This document shows, piece by piece, positions 6,001-63,759 of a stretch of DNA of 64,000 nucleotides. Every line of letters starts with the position of its first letter. Positions within the stretch are counted from its first letter, which is position 1. The DNA is taken from positions 41,978-105,977 of the forward strand of contig CALXZL010000005.1 in assembly GCA_944393215.1 (NCBI GenBank), given 5' to 3'. Under the pieces are notes generated by a model, which saw nothing but the letters and a program-made list of their open reading frames with translations, had not been told where the DNA came from and searched no databases. The position numbers and the translations under genes are program-made. The DNA is from an uncultured Alphaproteobacteria bacterium (lineage in GTDB: Bacteria > Pseudomonadota > Alphaproteobacteria > RF32 > CAG-239).

Positions 6001-9000
6001 CAACTGCAGCTTGTGAAATAATTGAATTTAATGTTACATCGCCATCTATAACAGTAGTTCCTGAACCTGTGATAGTTTGAGCTAATGTTCCGCCGTTTAA
6101 AATAAGACCTTTATTTACAGAGTTTGATATTGCACCTCCAAGGCCGTCTGCTGAAGTTGTTAAACTTCCGCTTGTAATATTGACTGCTTGAGCAATCGAG
6201 GAAGAATTTATAACATCTCCGGCGATTTTGGTTGAACCTGTGCCTGTAATTGTTTGAGATAATGTTCCTTTATTTAAAACAAGTCCGTTAGCTACATTAT
6301 TTTCAACTGCACCTGCTATGCCGTTTGCTGAAGTTGTCAGACTTCCGCTTTCAATATTTAAAGCCTGAGCAATTGATGCACCATCTTCAAGAGTAACTTT
6401 TGCACCGGTTACATTGGTTGTACCTGCACCTGTAACACCTTTTTGGAATTTAACGTTACCTGAAGTTAAATTCAGCGTTCCTTCGTTAATAATATCTGTT
6501 GTTCCGTTATTGGTGAATGCTGTAGTTGCAATTTCTACAGTACCGCCACTAGCGTTTTTAACAGCAGCGTCCGAGAAATTTCTGACTTCTTTTACATTGT
6601 TTAAAGCAAAAGTCTGACCGTCTGTAATTTGAATACCTTCTGTTGAATTACCGTCAAGGGCTAAATTTTTACCGTTAACGGTAAGACTTGTACCTACAAG
6701 AGTTCCTAAAGCCTGTGTAACTATTTCAGCACCAGAACCGCCGTCTTTCAAAGAATATGAACGAACAGCTTTTTCCGTATTTGTTACAGCGGCGTAAATA
6801 TTATCATATAAATCTAACGGTACAAAAGTTAATCTACCCCTAGATGGATCATAGGTAACCTGATAATCAGAGTTTGTATTTGTAAACACAACATCATCCG
6901 CAACAGATATAGCATAAGCACCTGCACCTGCACCTGTACTTATTATAGAAACGGATGTTTCTGTCGTTGCATCAGATATGAAATTAATAGTTGAAATTAC
7001 AACCGGAGATAAACCTGAAAGGGTTGAAGACAGATAATCGGTTTTACCATTTGCTAAATCAACATCTAATTTTAGTTCTGTTGTCGTGCCATAGCCAATA
7101 TCCCCAACACTAATACTACCTGTGGCACCGTTTGCAATATCTAAAATACCGCCATTAACATTTAATCTTGTACTTTTGGTTAGTTGTTTTCCGCTATTGT
7201 CAACACCGATTACCAATTCTCCGCCTTGCAGGTTAATATTTGTGCGTCCAATATTGTCAGCTCCCGAAAAAGTTGCTTTTGCGCCTTCAGTAATATTTAA
7301 TGTCGCATTATTTCCGGAGCTAAAAATAACAGAATCTGCAATTTCGCCGCCATTACCCAATGTTAGAGTTGCCGAGCTTGAAAGGGTAAGAGTGTTATTT
7401 TCAATAACATTATTAACCTCATACAATCCGGTATCAGCAAATGTTAGTTTTTGATTTGCAATATAATCATCACCATCATGACCTGTAATTTTATCATCTA
7501 TCACAAAACCGGATATACCCTCAAAATCACCGGAATAAGTAGCAGAATCGTAGTCATAATTTGTAAAAACAACTTCAGCGCTATTAATTGTACCATCATC
7601 ACCTACATAAGCAGAATTGTATATAGCAACAGGGTTACCATTTATATCTTTATTTCCGCTAATAGCATGACTATTAGTATAAGGTGAACTAATAGTTATT
7701 TTTGCAGAACTATCGCTATTGGCGGCATTATAGATTGCACCATATTGCCCTTGGTTGCCTTTTATATTTACTTGAGTAAGCTTCATTGTACCGCTGTTTG
7801 CGATTGTTGCAATCTTGTCAGTAGAGATATTATTAATAAAATCAGCATCCAAAACACTCATTGTTCCGCTATTATTAATCGCAGAATTATTAGCTTCAAA
7901 TATGGTATCATTTACAGCTGCACTGCCTGAATTTACAATTGCATAACCGTCATTATTTTTAAATGTGGTATCTTTAACGCTTAGAGCCGCCGACTCGCCG
8001 TTATTGACAAGCAATCCCGAAGAAATATTCTTATTGTTCAAGAATGCAGAATTTTTAATTTTGGTATTTGTTTCAACGCTTTCACTTGTGGCTGATACGA
8101 TTGAACTCATAGAGTCATTATCGGCAATAACGCTGTTGTTTATTTCAACGCTGCCTTGTTCATTGGCAATAAATCCGCCATCTGCGTTTTTAAAACCGAC
8201 AAGTTTCTGTTTTGCCGTTCCGTCCGGATTTAATGAACCGACATCATTAAGAACTAAAAGCTGTCCTTCATTTACGGTTATACCTTCAGCGTAATTATTT
8301 GATAAATCACGACCATCCATGCCGTAGCCTTCGCCATTGATTCCTAAATATCCTCCATTGATTGAACCTAAAGAAGCAGTGGATTTATAATCTTCTTTAA
8401 GGGTGTACATTTTACTGTTTACTTCGTTTTTAATGGCACTATCAAGGCTGAGTCCACTACCTTTTGTTATTTTAATAGTACCTAAGTCTGAATCATCCAC
8501 CAAATAATTATAAGACTTATCTATATAATATTCGGTCATTTCTGTATCATTTATTCTTCCAAGCCCAACTCTTACATATTCATCAGAAATCGGACGGCCG
8601 GAATCATTCTGCATTTCATTAATCTGAAGAAATTTGAACTTTTTAGACTCTCCATCTCCTAAATCGGTCGATGAAAGATTATTTACTCTATCAACCGAAA
8701 AAACAATATCAGCGTATTTATTCTTTTCAATAGTATCTATTTTCAAAAGGTCAATTGTATATTTATCAATTGCTGCGGTTGAAAAATCAGCGTCAAGATT
8801 TAAATGAAGCTCATCTTTTTCAGATAACCCCATATAATTAGTATAAGCACCTATATTAACAGAAGTAATCGCATTATCCAGCGTTGTATCTACAGCATTA
8901 TAAGTTGGATAAACCGAAGCTAAAGTACCTATATTTTTGTCTCCGTCAATATTAACAAGAGCACCATCGCTTGATCTTAACCTAAGAAAACTAAGCCCCT

Positions 9001-11407: not shown

Positions 11408-11610
11408 GGAAACCTCCTTGGCTAAAAATAATTATGTGGCCGTTTTTAGCATAGCTTTAACGGTCGCTTAAGGTATGCTGTTTTAATATTCAGATATTAT
11501 TGTTTCTTAAAAAACTAAAAAAACTTTGATTAAGCAAAAAATATTTAATAAAAACAGAATTTTTTCTTGATTAATTTGAAACGATAAAATAGGATAACAT
11601 AAATTGACCG
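11408..11610. promoter_or_regulatory. Adhesin upstream region with nested inverted repeats (candidate invertible or operator segment)
   Basis: This 203-base AT-rich gap must hold the adhesin promoter. It contains three inverted repeats: GCTAAAAA (11421-11428) with TTTTTAGC (11443-11450); an imperfect palindrome at 11448-11479 with arms AGCATAGCTTTAA and TTAAGGTATGCT; and TTTAACGGTC (11456-11465) with its exact reverse complement GACCGTTAAA (11606-11615), flanking 140 bases. The last pair ends at the stop codon of a serine invertase gene. No convincing -35/-10 pair can be fixed by eye. Functions as recombination sites or operators are inference. Confidence 0.4.
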
Positions 11611-12219
11611 TTAAATTTTATCCTTTTTTAAATGCTGGCGAACATATTTATTCATAGTTAATCGGCTCACCCCGAAAAGTTTGGCAATTTTGTTCTGAGA
11701 GATTTTTTGTGATAACATCCTTTTTATTTCTTCTTGCTTGCCGTCTAATTTATGTTTCCGGTTAAGGCTTCCTTTTTCTCTTCCCAGCTTTTTTCCTTCG
11801 GCTTTTAAACGCGCTAAAGCCTCTTTGGTTCGCTGGCTGATTAAATCACGCTCTATTTCCGCTAATAACCCAAATGCAAAAGCCAGAACTTTACTTTGAA
11901 TATCCATACCTAAACGATAATTATCCTTAATCGTCCAAACTTGAATACCTTTTTGCATACATATATTTAAAATCATCATAATCTGAAACAAATTTCTTCC
12001 TAAACGAGAAATTTCCGAACATACCAAAACATCGTCTTTGTTTAACTTTTTTATCATTTTTCCGAGTTTGCGTTCTTCAAAATTTTTAGTGCCACTTATT
12101 GTTTCAGTAACCCATCTGTCAACGGAAATATTTTCTTTGTTGCAATAGCGGTTTATTTCAAATTTTTGATTTTCCAAACTTTGTTTGTCAGTAGAAACCC
12201 TAAGATATCCATATATCAT
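11611..12219 (-). CDS. Serine recombinase, Pin/Gin/Hin invertase-type
   Basis: The product of 202 residues begins MIYGYLRVSTDKQS, the resolvase/invertase N-terminus with the nucleophilic serine in RVSTDKQ (about residue 9). A catalytic-domain block follows (SEISRLGRNLF; GLLAEIERDLI). A short C-terminal helix-turn-helix reads QNKIAKLFGVSRLTMNKYV. Its length matches small DNA invertases and resolvases rather than large integrases. I chose the ATG at 12219 because AAAGGAAA precedes it and the family starts there; an upstream in-frame extension exists. It is the last gene of a minus-strand phage-remnant cluster, 60 bases after the outer spanin, and it directly precedes the adhesin control region. 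It could invert a phage or adhesin control element, or be a resolvase of the lost phage. Confidence 0.85.
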   Translation of the reverse strand: MIYGYLRVSTDKQSLENQKFEINRYCNKENISVDRWVTETISGTKNFEERKLGKMIKKLNKDDVLVCSEISRLGRNLFQIMMILNICMQKGIQVWTIKDNYRLGMDIQSKVLAFAFGLLAEIERDLISQRTKEALARLKAEGKKLGREKGSLNRKHKLDGKQEEIKRMLSQKISQNKIAKLFGVSRLTMNKYVRQHLKKDKI

Positions 12220-12279
12220 TATTTTTCCTTTGTGTATAAAAAAATTAATGTTAAGAAGCAACAAACATTAATACATTAT

Positions 12280-12477
12280 TTATGTTTCGCATAATTCATC
12301 ATAAACCACGTTATTGCGGTCGATTTGGTTAATGGTTTCCGGTGTATCATTGAGGTAATCGGGGTACACCGGTTCATAAATAAGGCAAAAATCACCGCTT
12401 ATATTTGTTGTGCAAGCGGTTAATGCGCTCGCTATCAGACAAGCTATCGCGAGCTTTTTTAGCAATTTTATGGGCAT
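12280..12477 (-). CDS. Small phage-type lipoprotein, outer-spanin (Rz1-like) candidate
   Basis: 65 residues starting MPIKLLKKLAIACLIASALTACTTN. This is a classic lipoprotein signal with lipobox ALTAC, so the mature protein would be anchored to the outer membrane through its cysteine. The rest (DFCLIYEPVYPDYLNDTPETINQIDRN... in two parts) resembles short proteins found after holin/endolysin genes in phages of alphaproteobacteria. Its start is embedded, in another frame, inside the preceding gene (12392-12601), the architecture of Rz/Rz1 spanin pairs. Spanins disrupt the outer membrane in the last step of phage lysis. The function is inferred from architecture and context. Confidence 0.6.
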   Translation of the reverse strand: MPIKLLKKLAIACLIASALTACTTNISGDFCLIYEPVYPDYLNDTPETINQIDRNNVVYDELCET

Positions 12478-12601
12478 TGTTTTCTCCTTCCAACTGTTCT
12501 TTTTCTGCGGTTTCTTTGGCTTGTCGATAGCCAAACATATATAAAAAAAGAGCGATGGTCGTGAAAACCACCGCTCTAAACTTCTTTAGAATCTCCATCA
12601 T
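12392..12601 (-). CDS. Small membrane protein with coiled coil, inner-spanin (Rz-like) candidate
   Basis: 69 residues: one N-terminal membrane segment (AVVFTTIALFLYMFGY) then a highly charged helical tail (QAKETAEKEQLEGENNAHKIAKKARDSL). This is the topology of inner-membrane spanins. A GGAG site lies ahead of the ATG ATG pair. The gene overlaps the holin gene by 26 bases at its start and contains the start of the lipoprotein gene near its end. No clear sequence family is recognised, so the assignment rests on topology, nesting and position. Confidence 0.55.
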   Translation of the reverse strand: MMEILKKFRAVVFTTIALFLYMFGYRQAKETAEKEQLEGENNAHKIAKKARDSLSDSERINRLHNKYKR

Positions 12602-12794
12602 CTTTTTTTCTCCGATTAATTCCGATATCTCTTATTCCGCTTATACCAAGCATTATTCCCAAACTGGTGAGCAACTGTTCCCAGTCCACCAAATCAACGT
12701 GAAAATACGGTGCAATAACACAGTTATTGAAAAATCCGTAGCATAAAATCCAGCCGATTATAGGAATCCAACTTCGTTTATTTAGTCGAAACAT
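12576..12794 (-). CDS. Phage holin-like membrane protein (GTA/3TM-holin type)
   Basis: 72 residues beginning MFRLNKRSWIPIIGWILCYGF, with two hydrophobic segments (WIPIIGWILCYGFFNNCVIAPYF in two parts, then LLTSLGIMLGISGIRDIG) and a basic tail ending KKDDGDSKEV. The Arg-Ser-Trp-Ile entry and the L..LLG.SG.RD block resemble the 3TM holins of gene transfer agents and alphaproteobacterial prophages. The start at 12794 is chosen by homology-like register; an in-frame extension to 12851 overlaps the truncated protease gene. Holins form the membrane lesions that time phage lysis. Confidence 0.6.
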   Translation of the reverse strand: MFRLNKRSWIPIIGWILCYGFFNNCVIAPYFHVDLVDWEQLLTSLGIMLGISGIRDIGINRRKKDDGDSKEV

Positions 12795-13180
12795 AAGTCT
12801 ATCGGTTTTTGACCGCGTGCCTTGTAAATAATATCTGCGACCTCCGAGCATCCGTTGACTTCACCTCCCGAACTATCAATATCCAAGACAATCGCTTTGA
12901 TATTTGGATCTTTTAGGGCTTTATTAAAATCTTGAGCAAAAAGCTCATAAGATGTAGCACCACAAACTTTGGTTAAGAGATTGGCATAGCGAAACAATGG
13001 TCCGCAGAGCCTAATAACACAAACGCCGTCTCGAACTGAGGCGGCGTTACTATCTTTCATTTCTTTTCCCATTTCTCGGGCAATGGCTTCTGGGGGTTTA
13101 TTGTTCTCCTTGGCTAAGCTCATCATGGTTTGTAACATCTCCGGGGTTATCGCCCAGATTGTTTGATTGAATAGTTTCAT
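12782..13180 (-). pseudogene. Truncated phage S49 (SppA-like) head protease
   Basis: 132 codons matching the N-terminal half of phage S49 proteases: AITPEMLQTMMSLA near the start, then DPNIKAIVLDIDSSGGEVNG, the conserved strand-turn before the active site. The reading frame ends at KARGQKPIDLCFD, just before where the family carries the catalytic serine block, so the protein cannot be active. Immediately at this point the holin frame begins, as if a deletion had joined the protease 5' half to the lysis genes. All structural and packaging genes expected between them are absent. This marks the cluster as a decayed prophage. Confidence 0.75.
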
Positions 13181-13320
13181 TATGTTTCCTTTCTGATAAA
13201 ATAAAAACCTTTACTTTCTTTTTTAACAAGTAAAGGATAAGCTACAAACCTTTACTTTTTGCATTGACTTGTAAAGGTTATTTGGTTATGATACTCTTAT
13301 AATAAAACAAAGGAGATACC
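13181..13320 (+). promoter_or_regulatory. Promoter of the Fic gene with repeated operator-like half sites
   Basis: A near-consensus promoter TTGACT (13264-13269), 17-base spacer, TATGAT (13287-13292) precedes the Fic gene; AAAGGAG lies 5-11 bases before the ATG. Four copies of one half site surround it: CCTTTACTT (13208-13216) with AAGTAAAGG (13228-13236), and AACCTTTAC (13247-13255) with GTAAAGGTT (13271-13279). The second pair covers the -35 and spacer, so a bound protein would block transcription. The Fic protein has a C-terminal winged-helix-like region and is the obvious candidate repressor, which is inference. Confidence 0.65.
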
Positions 13321-14478
13321 ATGAAACGTGATATTCAAGGAACTTTAGTGAAATGCTCAGTAACATCTGAAACATATCAAGCCTTTGTTCCTAATCCATT
13401 ACCACCGAAACCTGATATTGATTTATCAGAAGTATCTGTTTTATTAGAAAAAGCTAATCAATCCATTGGAGAACTAAATGGTGTTGTAGAAACAACAATA
13501 GATTCTTCCATTCTAAATTATATGTATGTACGTAAAGAAGCTGTATTATCATCACAAATTGAAGGAACTCAATCAACATTGGATGATCTTTTAAGATATG
13601 AATCAGAGCAGACGCAAGGTATTCCCATTGCAGATGCATCTGAAGTGTCTTCATATGTAGCGGCTTTAAATCATGGGTTGCAACGAATTAAAGACGGTTT
13701 TCCTTTATCTTTACGTCTCATTCGTGAAATTCATAAAATACTTCTTACTAACTCAAGAGGGAAAACAAAACTTCCTGGAGAGTTTCGTTCATCCCAAAAT
13801 TGGATTGGCGGAACAAGACCTGGCAATGCTCGATTTGTTCCAGTTCCACCAGAAAAACTCATGTCTGTTCTGGGAAATTTAGAAATTTTTATGAATAGTG
13901 AAGATAATATTCCAAATTTAATCAAGGCTGCTCTTATCCATGTACAGTTTGAAACGATACACCCATTTCTTGATGGAAATGGAAGGCTCGGTCGTCTTTT
14001 AATTACATTTTTCTTATGCATAAAAGGTGTTCTAGATTCTCCTTTCTTATACCTGAGTTTATTCTTCAAAAAGAATAGAACCATGTATTATGATACTCTC
14101 AATGCTGTTCGTAAAGACGGAGATTGGGAGAATTGGATTAAATTCTTTTTAGAAGGTGTTATTGAAACAGCAAATGATGCCAAAAAAACACTTATAAATA
14201 TTCAAAACATCTTTTCAGCAGATATTGAGCAGATAAAAACTCTCGGTCGAGCATCTGAATCTGCTTTAAAAGTATTTTCAGCATTTCAAAAGAAACCCAT
14301 GCTTACCGTTTCTGAAATCATAAAAATGATAGGAAGTACAAAACCAACTGTCATAAAATCCTTAAATCATTTAATTGACTTAGGGATTTTGGTAAATAAT
14401 TCCGAAAAAAAATGGGGCCAAATATATACATATCAAAAATATACAGATCTATTATCTTCGAATGTGGAGCCATTATAA
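13321..14478 (+). CDS. Fic family AMP-transferase with N-terminal inhibitory motif and C-terminal winged helix
   Basis: 385 residues. The Fic catalytic motif HPFLDGNGRLGR is complete at residues 214-225 (His214 catalytic, Asn-Gly-Arg for ATP phosphates). An inhibitory helix SSQIEG (77-82) fits the [S/T]xxxE[G/N] rule for class II Fic proteins, where Glu81 blocks productive ATP binding. Ahead of it is the Fic_N region (ALNHG and P-rich start). Residues about 270-380 hold helices typical of a winged-helix DNA-binding domain (TVSEIIKMIGSTKPTVIKSL). Proteins of this layout AMPylate themselves or targets and may autoregulate. It is transcribed away from the prophage remnant and sits between it and tRNA-Glu, a common place for acquired genes. 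The target is unknown. Confidence 0.9.
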   Translation: MKRDIQGTLVKCSVTSETYQAFVPNPLPPKPDIDLSEVSVLLEKANQSIGELNGVVETTIDSSILNYMYVRKEAVLSSQIEGTQSTLDDLLRYESEQTQGIPIADASEVSSYVAALNHGLQRIKDGFPLSLRLIREIHKILLTNSRGKTKLPGEFRSSQNWIGGTRPGNARFVPVPPEKLMSVLGNLEIFMNSEDNIPNLIKAALIHVQFETIHPFLDGNGRLGRLLITFFLCIKGVLDSPFLYLSLFFKKNRTMYYDTLNAVRKDGDWENWIKFFLEGVIETANDAKKTLINIQNIFSADIEQIKTLGRASESALKVFSAFQKKPMLTVSEIIKMIGSTKPTVIKSLNHLIDLGILVNNSEKKWGQIYTYQKYTDLLSSNVEPL

Positions 14479-14674
14479 AATTACCAGATATTACCAGATA
14501 AGGATATTTTATTTACCAGATACTTCTTTATCTTCCTCCAAAATTACAGTTTTTCCGTTAATTTTGACTTCATCCAAAGAACTGAAAATCTCTTAAGATG
14601 ATTTCCAATGCAGTTACCAGCGCACTTAACAAATCGGCGCGGGATAAAGGGCTTGTTGATAAGGATTTAAAACG
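14479..14674. other. Gap after the Fic gene with a thrice-repeated decamer
   Basis: TTACCAGATA occurs at 14481-14490 and 14491-14500 and as a near copy from 14513. The rest, up to the tRNA-Glu terminator, has no convincing gene; a 66-codon minus frame here runs through the tRNA and is rejected. It may be residual prophage or integration-scar sequence. Confidence 0.4.
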
Positions 14675-23470: not shown

Positions 23471-23507
23471 AAAAAAATAAGCCCGTTTCCGTGGGCTTAT
23501 TTTTTTA
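23471..23507. terminator. Bidirectional terminator between the secreted-protein pair and nrdG
   Basis: AAAAAAATAAGCCC pairs with GGGCTTATTTTTTT around GTTTCCGT; T-runs exist on both strands, serving the convergent units. Confidence 0.85.
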
Positions 23508-24206
23508 TTTTCTAATATCAAATGTTTCAAAATTTGACTTTAAATAGCTTAATAATTCTTTATCTTCAAAAAACTTGTCACACTCGCTATCCGGCGTTGT
23601 GTCTCCTTCAACTTGTCGGTAGCGCTGTAAATAATATTCTTTTACTCCTTTTGCCTTGAGCTCATCCGCAATCTTATAAATATCTTCAACACTCAATACT
23701 CTCGGATCGCAAGTGGTGCGGCACTCAAATGCCTTTCCGCTTTTGATTAACATATCCAAACTTTGCATTGCCTTGTCAAATTGATTTATCCCGCCGACGG
23801 CTCTGGTATAATGCTCGGCATTTAAAGGTGCCTTAATGTCAAAACCAACCCACACCAGCTCCGGCAATACTTTTTCAAAATGTTCCGGACGATATCCTCC
23901 GGTGTGCATGCCTACCTTATATCCCATTGCTTTGACTTCTTTGATATAATCCAACAGGCAATCTTGTACCAAAGGCTCACCTCCACTGAAGACAACCGCA
24001 TCTAATATACCTTTTCGGCTTTGTAAAAATTCGGCAAACTTCTCCCAAATAAAATCCGTCTCTCCACCGATTTTTTGTAAAGCTTGGTTATGGCAAAACG
24101 GACATCGCCACGGACAGCCTTGCATAAAAACAACAGCAGCCATCTGATTTGGAAAATCGACGGTGCTGAATGTTTCAACACCGCCGACTTTTATTTTTTC
24201 CTTCAT
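23505..24206 (-). CDS. nrdG: Anaerobic ribonucleotide reductase activating enzyme (radical SAM)
   Basis: 233 residues. The radical-SAM [4Fe-4S] motif CxxxCxxC is at Cys31, Cys35 and Cys38 (CPWRCPFC). The SAM-binding GGEP block is in FSGGEPLVQ. The enzyme uses flavodoxin-derived electrons and SAM to make the glycyl radical on NrdD. The longer form (about 230 residues) with TFSTVDFPNQ is the type found with NrdD enzymes outside the enterobacterial group. It ends the operon nrdD - glycyl ORF - nrdG, 14 bases after the small gene. Confidence 0.93.
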   Translation of the reverse strand: MKEKIKVGGVETFSTVDFPNQMAAVVFMQGCPWRCPFCHNQALQKIGGETDFIWEKFAEFLQSRKGILDAVVFSGGEPLVQDCLLDYIKEVKAMGYKVGMHTGGYRPEHFEKVLPELVWVGFDIKAPLNAEHYTRAVGGINQFDKAMQSLDMLIKSGKAFECRTTCDPRVLSVEDIYKIADELKAKGVKEYYLQRYRQVEGDTTPDSECDKFFEDKELLSYLKSNFETFDIRK

Positions 24207-24220
24207 AATTTGATATAATA

Positions 24221-24433
24221 CTATTCTGCTGCTATTGCCGTATAATCTTCTCTGGCTTCCATACCTGCGATTGCTTTGCTCTCAGAGAAGCATACTCTTG
24301 AATAAAACTCAGATTTTTTACCTTTGTTGAATTCGGATACCGGACGCAAATAGCCCATTACTCTGGTCCAAACTTCGCAAGGTTGTCTTTCTTCATCAGA
24401 TAATCTAACATCATTAATATTAATTGTATTCAT
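24221..24433 (-). CDS. Separately encoded glycyl-radical segment of NrdD
   Basis: 70 residues: LSDEERQPCEVWTRVMGYLRP, then VSEFNKGKKSEFYSRVCF. The RVMGY block with FNxGKxxE resembles the C-terminal glycyl-radical loop of class III reductases, with Gly27 the candidate radical site. The adjacent NrdD ends after its zinc site and lacks this segment. The gene has its own GGAG site. It lies 33 bases after the nrdD stop in the same frame, and the gap holds TAG, TAA and TAG in that frame, so no simple readthrough joins them. The two products presumably assemble, and NrdG activates Gly27; this is inference. Confidence 0.8.
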   Translation of the reverse strand: MNTININDVRLSDEERQPCEVWTRVMGYLRPVSEFNKGKKSEFYSRVCFSESKAIAGMEAREDYTAIAAE

Positions 24434-24466
24434 TTTAATATACTCCAGTTTCTAAGATTTTTATAA

Positions 24467-26524
24467 CTATGCAACTTCTTTTCTAGAGGCTGCGGCTCTT
24501 TTTTCTGCCATTTTCTCTTCATCGCAGATCGGGCAGTATTTATGTTCTCCGGAAATATATCCGTGTTTTGGACACACAGAGAAAGTCGGAGTTATGGTAA
24601 TGTAGGGTAAACGATAGTTGGTCAGAACTTTCTTGACTAAATCACGGCAGACTTTGGCTGATGAAAGCTTTTGTCCCATGTATAAGTGAAGAACCGTCCC
24701 GCCTGTATATTTGGTTTGCAAACGTGCTTGCAAATCCAATGCTTCAAACGGATCATCCGTAAAGCCAACCGGTAATTGAGAGGAGTTGGTGTAATATGGG
24801 TTCTCTTGTGTACCGGCTTGGATAATGTTCGGGAAGCGTTTTTTATCTTCACGGGCAAAGCGATATGTTGCGCTCTCTGCCGGTGTGGCTTCCAAATTAT
24901 ACATATGTCCGGTTTCTTCTTGAATTTTAACCAATTGTGCACGGATATAATCCAAAAACTTCTCGGCAAAATCTTGTCCCCAAGGGGTTGAAATATTTTC
25001 TTTGCCGTCGGTATAGTTCAAAATCATTTCATTGATACCATTTACACCAATGGTCGAGAAGTGATTGCGCAAGGTGCCCAAATAGCGTTTGGTATAAGGA
25101 TATAAGCCATTGTCTATCAGGCGTTGAATAACTTTGCGTTTGATTTCCAAAGAAGTGCGTGCAATGTTCATTAACTCGTCAACACGGGCGAACAATCCGG
25201 CTTCATTGCCTTTATATACATAGCCCAAACGAGCGCAGTTGAAGGTAACAACACCGATTGAACCTGTTTGCTCGGCAGAACCAAACAAGCCGTTGCCTCT
25301 TGCCAATAACTCACGCAAATCAAGTTGCAAGCGGCAGCACATGGAACGAATTTGTCCCGGCTTCAAAGATGAATTGATGAAATTTTGGAAATAAGGCAAA
25401 CCATATTTAGCCGTCATTTCAAACAACAACTCGGTATTTTCATCTTCCCACGGAAAATCCGGCGTCATATTATATGTCGGAATCGGGAAGGTAAACGGAC
25501 GACCTTTGATATCTCCTCTCATCATAACTTTGATGTAGGCTTTATTAATCATGTGCATTTCATCTTTCAAATCACCATAGGTGAACTCTTGTTCAACTCC
25601 GGCAATAATCGGATGTTTATCACGCAAATCTTCAGGGCATACCCAGTCAAACGTAAAGTTGGTAAACGGTGTTTGTGAACCCCAGCGTGATGGTACGTTC
25701 AAATTATAAATCAGTTCTTGGAAAGCTTGTTCAACTTGTTCATAGGTTAAATGATCTGCTCTGATGTACGGTGCCAAATAGGTATCTACCGATGAAAAGG
25801 CTTGAGCTCCTGCCCACTCATTTTGCAATGTTCCCATAAAGTTGACCATTTGTCCGATTGCGGCAGACAAGTGTTTTGCCGGTCCGGCTTCCGCTTTACC
25901 CGGAACACCGTTAAAACCTTCATGCAATAAGTTCTTCAAAGACCAACCGGCGCAATATGCTGCTAACATATCCAAATCGTGAATATGAATATCACCGTTG
26001 CGGTGAGCTTCTCCGACATTTGCCGGATAAACGTGGCTTAACCAGTAGTTTGCGGTAACTTTTCCCGAAACGTTCAATATCAAACCACCGTTGGAATAAC
26101 CTTGGTTGGCATTGGCATTAACTCGCCAGTCCAATCTCTCCAAATATTCATTAATGGAGCTTTCTACATCTACCATCACTTTTTTATCACTACGCATACG
26201 ATTGCGTTGGTCACGATACAAAATATAAGCTTTGGCTGTGGCAAAATAGTTGGCGGATATTAATACCTGTTCCACAACATCTTGTATTTGTTCAATCGAA
26301 GGCAGAGACTCGGCAAATTTATGCTTTAATACTTTCAATACCTGTGCGGTTAACAACCAGCTCTCTTCTTCGCCAAACTCTCCGGTCGTCGTACCGGCTT
26401 TATTGATGGCATTAAAAATTTTAGTGTTATCAAACGGTGCTAATGTTCCGTCTCTTTTGGTAACGCTCTCAATCGGAGATTTCTCATTCTCTAGCGGAGA
26501 GGATTTGTACTCGGTCTCTGACAT
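24467..26524 (-). CDS. nrdD: Anaerobic (class III) ribonucleoside-triphosphate reductase, large part
   Basis: 685 residues reducing NTPs to dNTPs without oxygen. The N-terminal ATP-cone (about 18-108; VTKRDGTLAPFDNTKIFNAI) senses ATP/dATP. The barrel core follows (GDIHIHDLDMLAAYCAGW; NVPSRWGSQTPFTNFTFDW; SIGVVTFNCARLGY). Near the end the zinc ligands C-x2-H ... C-x2-C appear (VCPKHGYISGEHKYCPICDEE). The usual glycyl-radical tail is missing and is supplied by the next small gene. The promoter region carries two NrdR boxes. Its presence implies growth without oxygen; no aerobic nrdAB lies in the window. Confidence 0.95.
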   Translation of the reverse strand: MSETEYKSSPLENEKSPIESVTKRDGTLAPFDNTKIFNAINKAGTTTGEFGEEESWLLTAQVLKVLKHKFAESLPSIEQIQDVVEQVLISANYFATAKAYILYRDQRNRMRSDKKVMVDVESSINEYLERLDWRVNANANQGYSNGGLILNVSGKVTANYWLSHVYPANVGEAHRNGDIHIHDLDMLAAYCAGWSLKNLLHEGFNGVPGKAEAGPAKHLSAAIGQMVNFMGTLQNEWAGAQAFSSVDTYLAPYIRADHLTYEQVEQAFQELIYNLNVPSRWGSQTPFTNFTFDWVCPEDLRDKHPIIAGVEQEFTYGDLKDEMHMINKAYIKVMMRGDIKGRPFTFPIPTYNMTPDFPWEDENTELLFEMTAKYGLPYFQNFINSSLKPGQIRSMCCRLQLDLRELLARGNGLFGSAEQTGSIGVVTFNCARLGYVYKGNEAGLFARVDELMNIARTSLEIKRKVIQRLIDNGLYPYTKRYLGTLRNHFSTIGVNGINEMILNYTDGKENISTPWGQDFAEKFLDYIRAQLVKIQEETGHMYNLEATPAESATYRFAREDKKRFPNIIQAGTQENPYYTNSSQLPVGFTDDPFEALDLQARLQTKYTGGTVLHLYMGQKLSSAKVCRDLVKKVLTNYRLPYITITPTFSVCPKHGYISGEHKYCPICDEEKMAEKRAAASRKEVA

Positions 26525-55271: not shown

Positions 55272-56939
55272 TTATTCTTCCTTCTGCTTTTTGAAAAAAT
55301 GCATATATGTTACAGGCTTGATGTCTGTGGCTTTATAGACCATTTTTCTTATCTTTGCCCTCATATATTCTTCTATCTGTGCCTCTTTATAATTAAGCTT
55401 TATCACTTCCGTATCTATGCTTTGCACTATGTTGTTTTTGATTTCCTCTGCTAACTTCTTAAACTCTTCCTCTTCCAAAATATCTATTGATGATATTTGT
55501 AAATCTTCAAGCCGCCAATTTTCATCAAATACAACACTGATAAACAGAGAACAATTATATGCTATTCTTTTGCGATTTTTGATTAATTGTGAATTTAATG
55601 AGGTCAGCTGCTTTCTGTCAACACCTATAATATCTGTCGGTATCTCGCCCACATTTTCCAACTTCCCCGATTTTAATAACATCACATCTCCGTTTTTGGC
55701 TAATGCAACTTCCTTTACGCCGCATTCCAATGCGAATCTTCTTTGAGCGCGGATATTTCTTTTATCTCCGTGAACCGGCAAAACAATTTTGGGCTTTATT
55801 ATTTCGTATAACTTTTTGATATCATCTTTGCACGCATGTCCCGATGTATGAACCATATATTCTTCACTGGAAATTACCTCTACTCCGGCATCTCTTAATT
55901 TTTCTTGCATCCGTTCTATTTTTTCTTCATTGCCGGGTATAATCTGCGAGGAAAATATTATGGCATCTCCTTTGCCTAATATAATATTCTTATTCTCTCC
56001 GTTGACAATTCGGGTTAAGCCGCTTCTGTAATTGGCTTGTGAGCCTGAACATATATACAGCATTTTATCAAGCGGAATCTCTGTGGCTTGCTTGGCTTCA
56101 ACATAGCTTGGCAAATTTTGCAAATAGCCGCTTTCTTTGGCTATGTTAATATTCTGAATCATGCTCATTCCGGCTATGACCGGCGTTCTGTCAGCTGCAT
56201 GTGCCGCCAATATCAAACTTTCCAATCGAGCTATGTTGGAGGCAAAGCATGTGGCAACCAGCGTATTCTTAAATTGCGGTACTAACTCAATTAATTTTTC
56301 TCTTATCACCGCTTCCGACGGACCGGATATTTCATGATTTAAATTTGTTGAATCTCCTATATATAAATCGACACCTTCCTTCCCGATTTCTTTGAGTCTG
56401 TCATACGATGTCGGCATAAATGACATTTTTTCATCATCAAAACGCCAATCCGTTGCATGAAAAACATTACCGTATTCGGTTTGGATGAATAAGCCGCAAT
56501 TATCCGGCAAGGAGTGCGCCATCGGAACATATTCTACCTTAAAATTGGGTAAATTAATGGTTTTATTTTCCTTAATCGGGAAAAGCTCAACTTCTTGATC
56601 TAATTTATATTCCGCCAAACGACGAACTATATGTCCGAGTGTGAAATCTACCGCATAAACCGGACATCTTAACTTGCTCCAGACATGAGCTATGGCTCCG
56701 AAATGATCTTCATGCGCATGGGTGATGAATATAGCTTCAATATCCTCCTGATAAGCTTCTAAAAATGAGGCATCCGCAAAACCTAAGTCTATTCCCGGGA
56801 AATCATCATTTAAAAATCCATAGCCACAATCAACGACTATAATTTTTCCCTTCACGGCATAGGCATACATATTAAAACCTACTTCTTCCGCGCCGCCCAA
56901 AGCAACAAAATATAATCCTTCTTTATTAAAACAATTCAT
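55272..56939 (-). CDS. rnj: Ribonuclease J
   Basis: 555 residues. Metallo-beta-lactamase/beta-CASP RNase with motif THAHEDHFGAI (zinc ligands), GDSTNLNHEISGPSE, ICSGSQANYRSGLTRI, MVHTSGHACKDDI and PVHGDKRN. Both endonuclease and 5'-exonuclease activities are known in the family; alphaproteobacteria use it for rRNA and mRNA maturation. Six bases separate it from birA, so it is co-transcribed with the nuo-birA unit. Confidence 0.95.
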   Translation of the reverse strand: MNCFNKEGLYFVALGGAEEVGFNMYAYAVKGKIIVVDCGYGFLNDDFPGIDLGFADASFLEAYQEDIEAIFITHAHEDHFGAIAHVWSKLRCPVYAVDFTLGHIVRRLAEYKLDQEVELFPIKENKTINLPNFKVEYVPMAHSLPDNCGLFIQTEYGNVFHATDWRFDDEKMSFMPTSYDRLKEIGKEGVDLYIGDSTNLNHEISGPSEAVIREKLIELVPQFKNTLVATCFASNIARLESLILAAHAADRTPVIAGMSMIQNINIAKESGYLQNLPSYVEAKQATEIPLDKMLYICSGSQANYRSGLTRIVNGENKNIILGKGDAIIFSSQIIPGNEEKIERMQEKLRDAGVEVISSEEYMVHTSGHACKDDIKKLYEIIKPKIVLPVHGDKRNIRAQRRFALECGVKEVALAKNGDVMLLKSGKLENVGEIPTDIIGVDRKQLTSLNSQLIKNRKRIAYNCSLFISVVFDENWRLEDLQISSIDILEEEEFKKLAEEIKNNIVQSIDTEVIKLNYKEAQIEEYMRAKIRKMVYKATDIKPVTYMHFFKKQKEE

Positions 56940-56945
56940 CTTCTC

Positions 56946-57677
56946 TTACCTGTGTTTATCTATATAAAAAATATCCCCGGCATATATTTTTTCTTTTTTA
57001 TTTCCTTGCTCCAATATCAAAGCTCCGGTTTCATCAATATCTGCAAATATGCCTCGTTTATTTTCTTTTTCCATATGAACTTCTATTTCTTCTCCCAAGC
57101 CTTTGACATTTTTTAGCCATTTGTCTCTTATGGACTTAAAACCTTCGGCTTGCCATTTTTCATAATTTTTATCATATATTTCAATGTATTTTCTCAATAA
57201 TATGCGGCGATCCACTTCATAGCCTTTTTCCTGCAGGCTCGTTGCCGGATACAAAACGCCCTCTAATTTCGGGGCGCCGACCAGATTTACGCCTATTCCG
57301 ATTATCAGATAATCGCCGGCGCCTTTTTCTAATAATATACCCGAAATTTTGTTATTTTCTACCAATATATCATTGGGCCATTTCAACTTTATATTTATAT
57401 TTGGAAAAATATCTTTCAAACTTTCAAATAAACTTAATGACACAATAAAGACAATTTCCCCGATTTGCGAAGGTTTTATTTTTTGCAGAAAAGACATAAA
57501 TAAATTGCCTTCATAACCTATCCAGCTTCTGCCACGTCTACCTCTTCCTTGCGTTTGTCTTATTGCCGTGACAACATATTCCCCGTCTTTTACCCGTTGG
57601 CTTAAGGCTTCCGCCTCATCATTGGTACTCGTTACCTCTTCTTTTTCTTCCCAATTCCATTTTCCTATTCTTTGCAT
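56946..57677 (-). CDS. birA: Biotin-[acetyl-CoA-carboxylase] ligase (monofunctional)
   Basis: 243 residues, without the N-terminal DNA-binding domain, so it is a class I ligase and not a repressor. Motifs: TSTNDEAEALSQ, GRGRRGRSWIGYEGNLFMSF (biotinyl-AMP loop), LKWPNDILVENNKISGILLE and GIGVNL. It attaches biotin to carboxyl carrier protein. Its position between nuoN and rnj is the conserved alphaproteobacterial order. Two bases separate it from the nuoN stop. Confidence 0.93.
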   Translation of the reverse strand: MQRIGKWNWEEKEEVTSTNDEAEALSQRVKDGEYVVTAIRQTQGRGRRGRSWIGYEGNLFMSFLQKIKPSQIGEIVFIVSLSLFESLKDIFPNINIKLKWPNDILVENNKISGILLEKGAGDYLIIGIGVNLVGAPKLEGVLYPATSLQEKGYEVDRRILLRKYIEIYDKNYEKWQAEGFKSIRDKWLKNVKGLGEEIEVHMEKENKRGIFADIDETGALILEQGNKKEKIYAGDIFYIDKHR

Positions 57678-57679
57678 TT

Positions 57680-59104
57680 CTACCTCATTATCGGTTGAAG
57701 CAGTGTTTCAAATTGCTCGATAAACAGTGCCGGATTTAATACACCCACCAGAAAAAATATCATATTCAGGAATAAACAAAAGTATATCCCTCTATCCGTA
57801 CGGTCAAAATTTTTGGTGCGAATTTCAAAAAACATAACCCGAATTACTCTGAAAAAGGCATTTAATAAAAGCAATAAGGCAAGCATGGCGAGACCTATGC
57901 TCCAATAGTCTTGCTCTCTTATCATATTCTCCACCGATTGCAACTTACCTAAAAATCCAAGCATGGGCGGCGAACCGGCAAATGATACGATAAATGCTGT
58001 CAGCAAGACCGAAACATATGGCTTTTGGGAAAAAATTCCCGAAATGTCTTGCAGCGAACTTACATATTCTCCGTTGCTCTTAAATGCAAAAAAGACGCTA
58101 TATACTCCGAAGATGGTCAATAAATATGCTATCAGATAAACAAAACTGCTGGTTATTCCGTTGTTGTTAAACGGTAATAAGCCCAGCATGATAAAACCGA
58201 CGGAATATAGACAGCAATATCCGAAAAGTCTGCGAAGATTGTCTTCTTTGGTGGCGCTGATTGCGCCCCAGAATAATGATACAATAGATAAGATGCGCAA
58301 AAACGGAACATAAATTGATGATGCCGTTGAAAAGACATTTATCAATAAATTTAATATGACGGCATATGCTCCGATAACCGGCAAAATTTGATTTATCATT
58401 CCGACCGGCAAAATGCTTAAGCCGGATTGTTCTATCCGATTAAAATGCAACGGCGCTATGCCCAGCATATATAATAAAGGCAGCAAAATGCCCGCAAATG
58501 CCATAATATCGGCTCTGTTCCACGCGTGTTTGGCATAATAGGCGGCAATCTTTGCATATTCCCAACTTCCGATTTTATGATAAAACCACAATCCGCTCAA
58601 TAAAATCATTAAGGAAAACATAAACATAAAAACAAAATAGCGACGGTTGCCCATTTCATATTCATAATCTTCCGAACTTAAACGCATCAGATAATAAATT
58701 AGCAGAGAACTTATAAAATAAGCGCCGCTTAATACTAAAAAATGAACGGATGATATTAATATCATCAAACTCACAATAAGTCCCGTTCCATAAGCATAAT
58801 ATTGTAATGAGGAACGATTTTTGTTCAAAAACCATTTACATGACAAAAAGAATATGCCCAAGCCGAAAATTTGCACAAAAATTTTATATAGCGTGGTATA
58901 GGTATTGTTCTGCACATATTCGGCATAACCCGAGCGATTGTAAAAAATGATACCCGACAGAATCGAAAAAAGGAGCATGATTTTGCTGACGGAATAAAAT
59001 GTTTTAGAGGTCTTGTTTTTGCGATATTTATTCAGCAAAAACATAATGGGTAATCCCATTAATAAAAATATTTCCGGAGACTGTGCTACCATTTGAACAA
59101 ACAT
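57680..59104 (-). CDS. nuoN: NuoN-like subunit of complex I, divergent
   Basis: 474 residues, about 14 membrane segments. Start ATG 59104 with AGGAG upstream. Family blocks remain in the second half: NLRRLFGYCCLYSVGFIMLG, LIAYLLTIFGVYSVFFA, SFAGSPPMLGFLGKL. But the TM5 glutamate (FELLSL in most) reads LSGAYF, and the lysine motif FKxxxVPFHxWxPDVYxGAP reads YMLGIAPLHFNRIEQSG. So the charged residues used for proton translocation are lost. It lies 10 bases after nuoM on the same strand. The assignment rests on order plus remaining motifs; a different antiporter-like complex is the alternative. Confidence 0.8.
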   Translation of the reverse strand: MFVQMVAQSPEIFLLMGLPIMFLLNKYRKNKTSKTFYSVSKIMLLFSILSGIIFYNRSGYAEYVQNNTYTTLYKIFVQIFGLGIFFLSCKWFLNKNRSSLQYYAYGTGLIVSLMILISSVHFLVLSGAYFISSLLIYYLMRLSSEDYEYEMGNRRYFVFMFMFSLMILLSGLWFYHKIGSWEYAKIAAYYAKHAWNRADIMAFAGILLPLLYMLGIAPLHFNRIEQSGLSILPVGMINQILPVIGAYAVILNLLINVFSTASSIYVPFLRILSIVSLFWGAISATKEDNLRRLFGYCCLYSVGFIMLGLLPFNNNGITSSFVYLIAYLLTIFGVYSVFFAFKSNGEYVSSLQDISGIFSQKPYVSVLLTAFIVSFAGSPPMLGFLGKLQSVENMIREQDYWSIGLAMLALLLLLNAFFRVIRVMFFEIRTKNFDRTDRGIYFCLFLNMIFFLVGVLNPALFIEQFETLLQPIMR

Positions 59105-59114
59105 CTTGTCTCTC

Positions 59115-60551
59115 CTATGCTCCCAAAACAAACCATAACGGTTTGACAAATGACATTAACAATATAAAACAGATAAACAGCATAAAAATAAATATGCCTT
59201 TATTTATATCTTCTACCTGATGCATTTCAACACCGCATTTTTCTATGTCGCGTAACCGAAATAATTCTCTCAACAAAGATGATGAAACTATCACCAATGA
59301 CAAGAGCATGATTATTCCCATTTTGATGTTTACTGCCAAAAGATCAGATAAAATTAAAAAATTGTTCAAAAATAATGAAGACAACGGCAATCCTACCGCA
59401 GCCAACGTCATAAAAGCATAGATGATTGAAATTTTGGGGCATGCACATAAAATTCCGTCATCCATTATTCCCTGCTGGCTTTGCTCCCGCGAGATATAAT
59501 GCGAAAAAACTTCCAACGATGCAACTATGATTAAATAACTGAAAAATGAAAAGGCTATGTTTAATAATATGACCTCATTTCTGGTCAATATACCCAACAA
59601 ATACATAATATAGTAGACCGTTATATATGAAAATATTTTATATTGACGGTCTTTGTTGATTAAACCGATTAAGGCAATAAACAACATTGTGACAATGCCT
59701 ATGATTTGCAATATAAATATATAATTGCTCATGATTGACGGTAAACTTTTGGGTAAGAATCTGACAAACCCATATATGCCCGTTAAAGGTAATATCATTG
59801 AAATTAAAAAGACCATCGGATGCCGAATACTGGAATTGACTGAAGATATCCAATAATGGAATGGCCATACCGGTATTCGCGACAACAGAGAGATAAATAT
59901 GGCTGCCCAGATAAAATATTCCATTTTATCATTTAATTTCATATTGCCTAACTGTTGCAGCTCCAACATGCCGTGTTGATAGTTAAATAAGAGAAGCGTG
60001 GCAACAAAAAAGATGACCGCACCCAACATATTATATAATAAAAATCGGTTGATATATTCTCGCCTTTTAATGTCTCCGAACATTCCCAATATCATAAACA
60101 GCGGCAATAAGGTCGCCTCAAAAAAGATGTAAAAAGAAAAAATATCTGCCGAAACAAAAAAGCCCGTAATCATACTTAAAAAAAGTAATGACCACACCAT
60201 TAAAGATTTTTGGTGTTCCATATTATTTCTGACACCGATAAAACCTATGATAAAGGCTATGTGTATTGCCAGAAGCAGCATTAAAGATAAAACATCTACG
60301 CCGAAAACAATGTTGATATCCGGATTTTTCATCCAATTATATGTCTCAACCAGCTGTATGCCCGGTTGATATACTTCTATCAACATGAATATGCGCAGTA
60401 TCATTATGATATTGGCAATAACGGCAAACACCGCAACACTGCATGCGTTCCGCGTACTTCCGTCTTCTGCCTCTTTGGCAAATAAGGTAAACAACATCCC
60501 CAAAAACGGAATCACAATTATCAGAGATAAAATGGAAAAAGTGTTTAACAT
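59115..60551 (-). CDS. nuoM: NuoM-like subunit of complex I, divergent
   Basis: 478 residues, about 14 membrane segments. The TM5 glutamate is kept (YIFFEATLLPLFMILGMFGD). The key TM7/TM8 part, normally VKxPxWPxHTWLPDAHxEAP...LLKxGGYG, reads LSRIPVWPFHYWISSVNSSI then LPLTGIYG: Lys to Arg, TWLPDAH to YWISSVN, and the second Lys lost. The His-rich SHxxxSxxLF block is also degraded (LNIAFSFFSYLI). The second half keeps AAVGLPLSSLFLNNFL. ATG overlaps the nuoL stop by one base. Part of nuoL-M-N. Confidence 0.85.
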   Translation of the reverse strand: MLNTFSILSLIIVIPFLGMLFTLFAKEAEDGSTRNACSVAVFAVIANIIMILRIFMLIEVYQPGIQLVETYNWMKNPDINIVFGVDVLSLMLLLAIHIAFIIGFIGVRNNMEHQKSLMVWSLLFLSMITGFFVSADIFSFYIFFEATLLPLFMILGMFGDIKRREYINRFLLYNMLGAVIFFVATLLLFNYQHGMLELQQLGNMKLNDKMEYFIWAAIFISLLSRIPVWPFHYWISSVNSSIRHPMVFLISMILPLTGIYGFVRFLPKSLPSIMSNYIFILQIIGIVTMLFIALIGLINKDRQYKIFSYITVYYIMYLLGILTRNEVILLNIAFSFFSYLIIVASLEVFSHYISREQSQQGIMDDGILCACPKISIIYAFMTLAAVGLPLSSLFLNNFLILSDLLAVNIKMGIIMLLSLVIVSSSLLRELFRLRDIEKCGVEMHQVEDINKGIFIFMLFICFILLMSFVKPLWFVLGA

Positions 60552-62215
60552 TATTTACCTCTCAATACGGCAATCAAAAATATTAAAGCGACACTTAAAA
60601 TAACATACATGAAATATCTGACGCCGGAATATACGTTTAACTTTGTTACGTTATTGATTAAAAATGCCGTGGTTTTGCTTATGGAATTAATTAAGGTTCG
60701 CTCTATTAATATAAAATCTACCAACAGCCATAAGATTCTTCCCAAAATGGTTAAAGGTGTAATAATCAGAAAATCAAAAATTGATTCAAATACGTCACTT
60801 TCCTGAATTTTTTCATTTGCATATGCTTGTTCCAAGCGGCGTAACGGATAAAAAAACAGAAATAATATAAACAACAGAAAACCGACTAAAAGTTCGTTCT
60901 GATATTTTTGATATTCGGGATATCCAAGCAATCCGCCGATGACAATCAGCGAAATCAGCATATACCATGTTGGATTTTTTAATAATGCCATTATTCTTTC
61001 ATCGGCATGAGATGTTCCGAAAAAAATTTGGCGAAAAATATGTGAACTTATCAATATTAAAATTCCGGCGCTGATAATGCTGATGACATATGGCGCAGAG
61101 GCTTGTGTTATCAAGATATAATGCACCAGCGCAAACAAAGATACGGTTATTATACCAAAACCAAATTTGGTGCCGCTGATAAAGCCGCCCATCTGTGATA
61201 CCTTCATTTCATGCGAGCTGGCATGATATACAAAAAACAAATTTAAGACAAAGAGATAACCGCCAAACAAAATCAACTGTTCAACCGTCTCAAATTTTGC
61301 CGAGAAAAAAAGCAAATTCATTAACCCGATACCGGTTAAAATTTGAGCAAAACCTATGGCTTTTTCTTTAATGTTATCGATGACTAAGGTTGTGTATATT
61401 CCGCAGAGCAGTGTCAAAATCGTCATTATTTTTAATAACGGTTCGGCATAGTCCGATACTGACATCAGAGGATAAAATTTATATAAAATTATTAATCCGG
61501 CAAACGGCGCCGAGCAAAAAAGAACATATGACAGACGATTGAAATTTAAAACACTTAAATCATAAAGTTGATTATGAAACATAAATAAACCGAGTTTTAA
61601 GCAAACCGAAAATGCCAATAAAACGGCAACCAAATCGCGATGTGCGCCCAACTTATCAAACTTGGGCAAGGCACTGAATTCCAAACTTCCGATATAGCCG
61701 TATGCCAAGCTGCAAACACTAAATAAACTCAAATCTGATAACAAATTATAAAATGCATATTTTTTGCGGGCATCCATATCATCTATGGTGCAAAAACCCA
61801 GAACGGTAATTAAGCAGCTGCAGATTAAAAGCTGCAACAAATTAACGGCACAGACAGCACCGGTAATTGCACATATATTCAGCATCACCAAGCTGCAAAA
61901 TCTTTGTTTTTTATTTTCTTCCGGATTGAAATTGGCTATCAACATTGACAACAGAGATAAAACATAAACGGGAAAAACTCGATTATAGCTACGGGCATTT
62001 GCCGATAAATCTATATCGACCTGCAAGCTCATGTATTTCAGCCAAGAAAATGCATGAATTTGGTCGGTACCGGATAGATAGTTTTTGCTTAAAATAAAGA
62101 AAACGGCTGCCGTGATCAGAAAGCTCAGCATGCCGATCATCCGATTGCCCCGTTTGGGAATCAGGATACTTCCGAAACTACCGCATATAGCTAAAATCAA
62201 TATACTGTTTATCAT
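60551..62215 (-). CDS. nuoL: NuoL-like subunit of complex I, strongly divergent
   Basis: 554 residues, shorter than the usual 600-700. About 15 membrane segments with a C-terminal long helix region (RRLEQAYANEKIQESDVFES). The antiporter motifs are mostly gone: no FVGWELVGLCS with its glutamate (LLICSCLITVLGF instead), no HAxFKALLFLxAG block (GGYLFVLNLFFVYHASSHEM instead). SDLSLFSVCSLAYGYIGSLEF keeps the GD..F...GSLDF outline, and SQMGGFI matches the IRKMGGL position. It is called NuoL by order and outline. The real function, proton pumping or structural, is open. Confidence 0.75.
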   Translation of the reverse strand: MINSILILAICGSFGSILIPKRGNRMIGMLSFLITAAVFFILSKNYLSGTDQIHAFSWLKYMSLQVDIDLSANARSYNRVFPVYVLSLLSMLIANFNPEENKKQRFCSLVMLNICAITGAVCAVNLLQLLICSCLITVLGFCTIDDMDARKKYAFYNLLSDLSLFSVCSLAYGYIGSLEFSALPKFDKLGAHRDLVAVLLAFSVCLKLGLFMFHNQLYDLSVLNFNRLSYVLFCSAPFAGLIILYKFYPLMSVSDYAEPLLKIMTILTLLCGIYTTLVIDNIKEKAIGFAQILTGIGLMNLLFFSAKFETVEQLILFGGYLFVLNLFFVYHASSHEMKVSQMGGFISGTKFGFGIITVSLFALVHYILITQASAPYVISIISAGILILISSHIFRQIFFGTSHADERIMALLKNPTWYMLISLIVIGGLLGYPEYQKYQNELLVGFLLFILFLFFYPLRRLEQAYANEKIQESDVFESIFDFLIITPLTILGRILWLLVDFILIERTLINSISKTTAFLINNVTKLNVYSGVRYFMYVILSVALIFLIAVLRGK

Positions 62216-63673: not shown

Positions 63674-63759
63674 CGGGTTCGAATCCCGAACGTCTCTTTA
63701 TACAAAAAAAAGCTCCGCTTTTGCAGAGCTTTTTACTAAATGGTGAGCGCGTCGGGATT
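63674..63759. repeat. 86-bp direct repeat with tRNA 3' end, copy 1
   Basis: Identical to 63894-63979 but for one base. It contains CGGGTTCGAATCCCGAACG, a hairpin AAAGCTC/GAGCTTT with A- and T-runs (tRNA terminator), and TGGTGAGCGCGTCGGGATT, the 3' end of the adjacent tRNA. After 63759 the tRNA sequence breaks off. Confidence 0.85.

Follow-up and report, generated by a model that had tools for sequence, protein, structure and literature searches.

A conserved NuoL-NuoM-NuoN trio without a complex I core: a candidate independent membrane module in an order of gut Alphaproteobacteria

The mechanism of proton movement by the antiporter-like subunits of complex I is debated, as is the ability of each to act alone. 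In Alphaproteobacteria, birA and rnj adjoin nuoN, and one component of the Mrp antiporter, MrpC, is a relative of NuoK. The Mrp Na+/H+ antiporter consists of seven proteins, including MrpA and MrpD, homologous antiporter subunits that work without redox chemistry; in B. subtilis, NuoL can replace MrpA and, under some circumstances, NuoN can replace MrpD (PMC4938563). A NuoL-type protein also works outside complex I in the DAB transporter, where DabB2 keeps the K229/D178-type ion pair and has an isoleucine in place of the glutamate of transmembrane helix 5 (TM5) (PMC13144422). DabB2 is a single NuoL-like subunit with an enzyme partner, DabA, and its entry-path residues are kept (PMC13144422). 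In NuoL, two ion pairs, K229/D178 and R175/E144, are described as alternating between open and closed states (PMC13144422). Among gut symbionts, Gilliamella (Orbaceae) carries membrane-arm nuo genes without the catalytic ones: nuoJKLMN are kept in this form in all 95 genomes of one study, which suggests that they are remnants of genome reduction (PMC11325843).

Literature searches found no description of orphan nuoLMN genes in the lineage considered here, the nearest case being that of Gilliamella (PMC11325843). The trio lies in the window (the whole stretch of 64,000 nucleotides that was analyzed), which is the end of contig C5 of a 1.72 Mb genome with 27 contigs and a completeness of 100. 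We take the family of this genome to be CAG-239, of the GTDB order RF32. Azospirillum sp. CAG:239 belongs to the same family (contig G014:C10 of the family is identical to FR885412.1). The cassette is arranged as follows:

60551..62215, minus strand: nuoL-like gene, 554 aa; antiporter fold with a lateral helix (residues 475-526) and a last TM helix
59115..60551, minus strand: nuoM-like gene, 478 aa; the best conserved among NuoL, NuoM, and NuoN
57680..59149, minus strand: nuoN-like gene, 489 aa from TTG; PF00361 match, TIGR01770 below its cut-off
56946..57677, minus strand: birA, context gene downstream of nuoN; TIGR00121 above its cut-off
55272..56939, minus strand: rnj (RNase J), context gene downstream; PF22505 match, NF047419 below its cut-off

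The five genes overlap or nearly touch, and the initial annotation was right in describing an intact gene order with birA and rnj, as the coordinates and order are correct and all lie on the minus strand. The window nuoL, nuoM, and nuoN are intact, divergent genes; for NuoN, translation more probably begins with the ATG of residue 16 than with the annotated TTG. A profile search of the window genome placed PF00361 matches in three places, all of which are these genes. NuoL is too divergent for NCBIfam in the window and, in one relative, also for Pfam, which often misses it in the order. The predicted NuoL and NuoM folds are complete and of the antiporter type, with the lateral helix present in NuoL (L and M models). 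Homology, the predicted L and M folds, and the gene order L-M-N liken the trio to the complex I membrane arm of E. coli and Paracoccus; however, NuoB, NuoD, NuoH, and NuoK were not found here and pumping residues are replaced. Whereas J and K are kept in Gilliamella, in the present case L, M, and N are found and NuoK is absent, across an order; purifying selection and residue replacement were also measured here, while the comparison rests on the gene content of Gilliamella.

For the other complex I subunits, the genome-wide searches covered NuoB, NuoD, NuoK, and PF01512 (the NuoF family) in 154 genomes of the order and NuoH in 19 genomes of the family. NuoD was not found in the window genome. 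Across the order, NuoD and NuoB were each detected in 1 of 154 genomes and in none of the 110 of good completeness, and NuoK (PF00420) exceeded its cut-off in 1 of 154. The sole positive for all three is genome G019, the only member of the order from another family. NuoH was found in 0 of 19 family genomes, compared with 14 of 15 outgroups from the class. The only PF01512 match in the window genome is an RnfC-type protein adjoining RnfB, not NuoF, the subunit by which the NADH module was sought. Since NuoD, NuoB, and NuoH were not found, NuoL, NuoM, and NuoN are not seen as subunits of any complex I, and with the core missing, redox-driven proton pumping as known from complex I is excluded for them. 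The initial proposal that proton pumping by complex I in its known form would be strongly reduced or absent is borne out, as the core for a complex-I-type redox pump was not found. Its suggestion of a non-pumping or ferredoxin-linked complex is not supported, given that NuoD and NuoB were not found in 153 of 154 genomes, nor NuoH in any of the 19, the window genome included; a ferredoxin- or NADH-linked complex I is rejected on these absences and on the RnfC identity of the PF01512 match. Weak PF00420 matches below the cut-off were seen at G037:C4:1497 and G040:C27:92677, at the start of frames of NuoL length (565 and 569 aa).

PF00361 proteins, on the other hand, are present in 142 of 154 genomes and in 104 of the 110 good ones, usually as two matches (M and N). 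No match was found in 12 of 154 genomes (6 of 110), so the nuoLMN module is dispensable or lost in those lineages. The Azospirillum sp. CAG:239 lineage is reported to be anaerobic and without terminal oxidases (PMC6431628), and HymABC-type [FeFe]-hydrogenase genes are described in CAG:239 relatives, again without terminal oxidases (PMC4967309, PMC6431628). A link of the trio to Rnf or to an NADH-dependent hydrogenase is rejected, as PF01512 and PF00361 show no association: 102 of the 142 genomes with PF00361 have PF01512, as do 8 of the 12 without it. In genus g6, all 3 genomes have PF00361 proteins and no PF01512 match. Outside the window genome, RnfC-type and HymB-type matches were told apart by frame length only.

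The cassette was followed through 81 loci (the window and the best 80 of 123). NuoL is present in 81 of these, NuoM in 81, NuoN in 80, birA in 79, and rnj in 77, with all five genes (nuoL-M-N-birA-rnj) together in 77; some of the gaps are contig ends. NuoM is intact, by length, in 81/81. As the 81 loci come from many named records, an assembly artefact is rejected, and no viral contig match was found with the window NuoM as query. In 57 of the 81 loci a protein of about 107 aa is encoded upstream of nuoL, at a distance of 30-106 bp (median 93); it has no Pfam or NCBIfam match and was seen neither in the window nor at loci L067-L072. This protein and the locus of G019 are represented by:

L036:7585-7902: example of the upstream protein of about 107 aa
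L035 (G019:C81:5000-23175), 7677-14560: reduced complex I locus of G019 with A, B, C, D, H, J, K, short M, and N

The G019 locus reads, in order, a 109-aa protein, nuoA, B, C, D, H, J, K, a 348-aa M, N, birA, and rnj. The 109-aa protein, which lies 97 bp before nuoA, is the same as that upstream of nuoL in the family, and birA and rnj are next to nuoN in G019 as well. No nuoE, F, G, I, or L was found at this locus; nuoJ is below its Pfam cut-off and nuoM is short (348 aa). By eye, the G019 NuoB has a CC and two further Cys motifs. Judged from gene order, the family arrangement would result if everything between the small upstream protein and nuoL were deleted, and G019 is possibly an intermediate, in a genome that is 79% complete and has masked bases. 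In quick trees rooted on E. coli, the family and G019 form one group for both NuoM (SH-aLRT 100) and NuoN (96). A very long stem leads to the NuoM group (3.02 + 1.22 changes per column) and is followed by constraint; for G019, the tree program gives a long-branch warning.

Selection was estimated by the simple Nei-Gojobori method on the closest 60 pairs of 77 loci with dS of 0.2-1.5, pairs that share loci and are not independent. NuoM has a median omega of 0.035 (13 pairs, range 0.014-0.363), NuoN of 0.065 (22 pairs, range 0.032-0.442), and NuoL of 0.116 (16 pairs, range 0.063-0.722), where the upper ends of the ranges include single high pairs; the neighbors birA and rnj have medians of 0.120 (27 pairs) and 0.034 (26 pairs). 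NuoL, NuoM, and NuoN are thus not decaying, and NuoM is constrained like RNase J. Partial correlations of distance matrices (mirror-tree) are 0.60 for L-M, 0.67 for M-N, and 0.52 for L-N, a weak signal that exceeds the controls M-rnj (0.58) and L-birA (0.53) only modestly.

Residues were assigned by reference to E. coli K-12 NuoL, NuoM, and NuoN and to canonical operons of Alphaproteobacteria (8 rows for NuoL and NuoM and 7 for NuoN). The family was represented by a first set of 17 rows and then by 77 NuoL, 81 NuoM, and 78 NuoN rows; short rows were left out (NuoL of L078, L103, L114, and L119; NuoN of L131 and L137), and L086, with no NuoN on its contig, has no NuoN row. For NuoL and NuoM, profile alignments to solved chains bear out the assignments; those of NuoN come from sequence alignment only. 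The main sites in the window are:

61814..61816, minus strand: NuoL C134, where E. coli has the TM5 glutamate E144; Glu lost in 77/77 family rows
61742..61744, minus strand: NuoL L158, at the site of R175, the partner of E144; Arg lost in 77/77
61733..61735, minus strand: NuoL D161, at the D178 site; acid kept in 77/77 (54 D, 23 E)
61595..61597, minus strand: NuoL K207, at the K229 site; Lys kept in 76/77
60117..60119, minus strand: NuoM E145, at the E144 site; Glu kept in 64/81
59877..59879, minus strand: NuoM R225, at the K234 site (LSRIPVWP); Arg in 81/81, positive charge retained
59784..59786, minus strand: NuoM L256, at the K265 site; Leu in 80/81
59361..59363, minus strand: NuoM N397, at the E407 site; Asn in 81/81
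58466..58468, minus strand: NuoN M228, at the K217 site; K in only 3/78
58445..58447, minus strand: NuoN H235, at the H224 site; His kept in 78/78

The full canonical set of TM5 Glu, TM7 Lys, central Lys, and TM12 Lys/Glu is not present across the three subunits; what is kept of it is NuoL K229, NuoM E144 (64/81), and NuoN K395 as K or R (49/78; K402 in the window). The loss of the TM5 glutamate from NuoL and NuoN, pointed out in the initial annotation, is confirmed: Glu occupies the NuoL E144 site in 0/77 rows, and the NuoN E133 site is F145 in the window, with E outside the eight commonest residues of 78 rows (2 of 17 in the first set). The change of the NuoM motif VKxPxWP to LSRIPVWP was also read correctly, R225 being at the K234 site. 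The broader statement that most pumping residues are gone from all three captures many real losses but is overstated, as NuoL K229/D178 and NuoM E144 are kept. Similarly, the conserved lysines are lost from NuoM (K234R, K265L) and from NuoN (K217, K247), but not from all three subunits, as NuoL retains K229 and K234R retains a positive charge.

The exit half of the path is depleted in every subunit, with NuoM K265, H322, H348, and E407, NuoN K247, and NuoL H254, H338, and K342 largely gone. In NuoM, the H322 site is Tyr in 77/81 and the H348 site has no His. The NuoN K247 site is V258 in the window. In NuoL, Lys is found at the K342 site in at most 1/77 rows and His at the H254 and H338 sites is outside the eight commonest residues (77 rows), while the K399 site has K in 10/77 within a poorly aligned stretch; the protein evolves fast, with a mean column identity of 36%. 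Other positions are fixed. NuoM D84, D135, H241, and R273 are kept in 81/81 rows, and conserved ionizable residues have been gained in NuoM (H97, 68/81; E347, 66/81) and in NuoL (R227, 74/77; K285, 73/77). In E. coli, about 75% of pumping is retained with NuoM E407K (PMC9271201), and NuoN E133 substitutions have little effect (PMC3046159). Single losses of this kind do not by themselves abolish E. coli pumping; what matters is their combination, together with the missing core.

These data are best read as a redox-independent, selected, stand-alone NuoL-NuoM-NuoN module, to which we assign a probability of about 0.6. For the fuller account, in which an order of gut bacteria has made the distal arm of complex I into a three-subunit membrane machine of its own, with a rewired charge pattern and a function that is new and under selection, we would put the odds at roughly even. 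The three proteins belong to a known superfamily and likely have a new function. An ancestral complex I operon would have lost, in this order of gut Alphaproteobacteria, the genes formerly in front of nuoL, with nuoLMN as the remnant. The trio, which quite probably still assembles, would be kept as a membrane complex in which NuoM may be the hub and the NuoL lateral helix may hold the parts together, and would need neither NADH nor quinone nor the core of complex I to work. Whether ions or water pass through it is more doubtful, and we lean slightly against it. The favored mechanism would be a passive, gradient-driven gate or conduit: NuoL, which has the K229-D178 pair and lacks the R175-E144 pair, as its stand-alone relative DabB2 lacks that Glu, would adopt an open-type state, and NuoM retains an E144/R234/H241 cluster on the entry side. 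It is the combination of a kept K229/D178, as in DabB2, and a lost R175/E144 that favors such a gate, whereas the exit-half losses argue against conduction along the classic path, and the absence of DabA also counts against this step. One of the options raised at the outset, a new coupling ion path, is possible. An Mrp antiporter is rejected, as the NuoK/MrpC family (PF00420) is above its cut-off only in G019; this family is part of the seven-protein Mrp and has no such match elsewhere in the order.

If this reading is true, the lineage represents a natural experiment on antiporter-like subunits without redox chemistry: exactly L, M, and N are kept under constraint without a redox core, which separates the pump question from electron transfer. 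The nuoLMN trio would also be a system open to expression and assay by itself. For annotation, the presence of genes called NuoL, NuoM, and NuoN here does not imply respiration.

Two other explanations are to be taken seriously, though each is unlikely, to a similar degree. In the first, NuoL, NuoM, and NuoN conduct nothing and give other proteins a platform or anchor in the membrane. The loss of central and exit residues from M and N, while folds and selection persist, is consistent with such a scaffold, as is the enrichment of conserved columns in the NuoL lateral helix (6 of the 14 columns conserved at >=90% fall in 52 of 554 residues; p = 0.0009, for a region picked after the model was viewed). 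A scaffold would not need buried charges, however, and these are near-invariant (NuoL K229 in 76/77; NuoM R234, H241, and D135 in 81/81); moreover, no constant partner gene accompanies the trio across the 81 loci (the window and the best 80 of 123). In the second, the trio is the membrane part of an unrecognized enzyme, in the way that DabB serves DabA, and the partner is encoded elsewhere in the genome. PF00361 proteins are reused with non-redox partners, and NuoL has the DAB-type residue pattern (K229 in 76/77, an acid at D178 in 77/77, E144 and R175 in 0/77). Yet DabA (PF10070) was found in 0 of 154 genomes of the order, so that a DAB transporter is rejected and the DabB analogy is left without its partner; unlike DabB2, the present trio has lost many path residues and brings three subunits together. 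The sole linked candidate is the protein of about 107 aa near nuoL, in 57 of 81 loci, and PF01512 proteins of RnfC or HymB type do not track with PF00361 (102/142 vs. 8/12).

It is very improbable that the trio is a complex I relic in decay, retained through inertia or because its translation is coupled to that of birA and rnj. The trio is derived from complex I, its genes overlap or lie almost end to end, PF00361 is without a match in some lineages, and the comparable nuoJKLMN of Gilliamella are read as remnants by the authors of that study (PMC11325843). Nevertheless, the relic subunits proposed in the initial annotation are hard to reconcile with the strong purifying selection (median omega from 0.035 to 0.116), with a NuoM that is intact in 81/81 loci, and with newly fixed residues that are not random. 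Coupling would leave amino acids unconstrained. That the rest of complex I is present elsewhere, too divergent (as NuoL itself is for NCBIfam and, in one relative, for Pfam) or lost in gaps of draft assemblies, is scarcely credible, as NuoD and NuoB were found in none of the 110 good genomes though the equally unusual G019 copies were detected, and NuoH in none of the 19 family genomes searched.

Some further features of the window were observed. Between nuoL and a 279-aa protein without a Pfam match lies a 70-aa protein with a DUF2934 match (PF11154; 62353-62565, minus strand). A short repeated stretch is present at the contig end (63620-64000), with similar peptides at 63721 and 63941, and is perhaps a breakpoint of the assembly. 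At 23505-26524 (minus strand), a putative anaerobic ribonucleotide reductase and its activating enzyme were recognized by eye, which fits an anaerobe.
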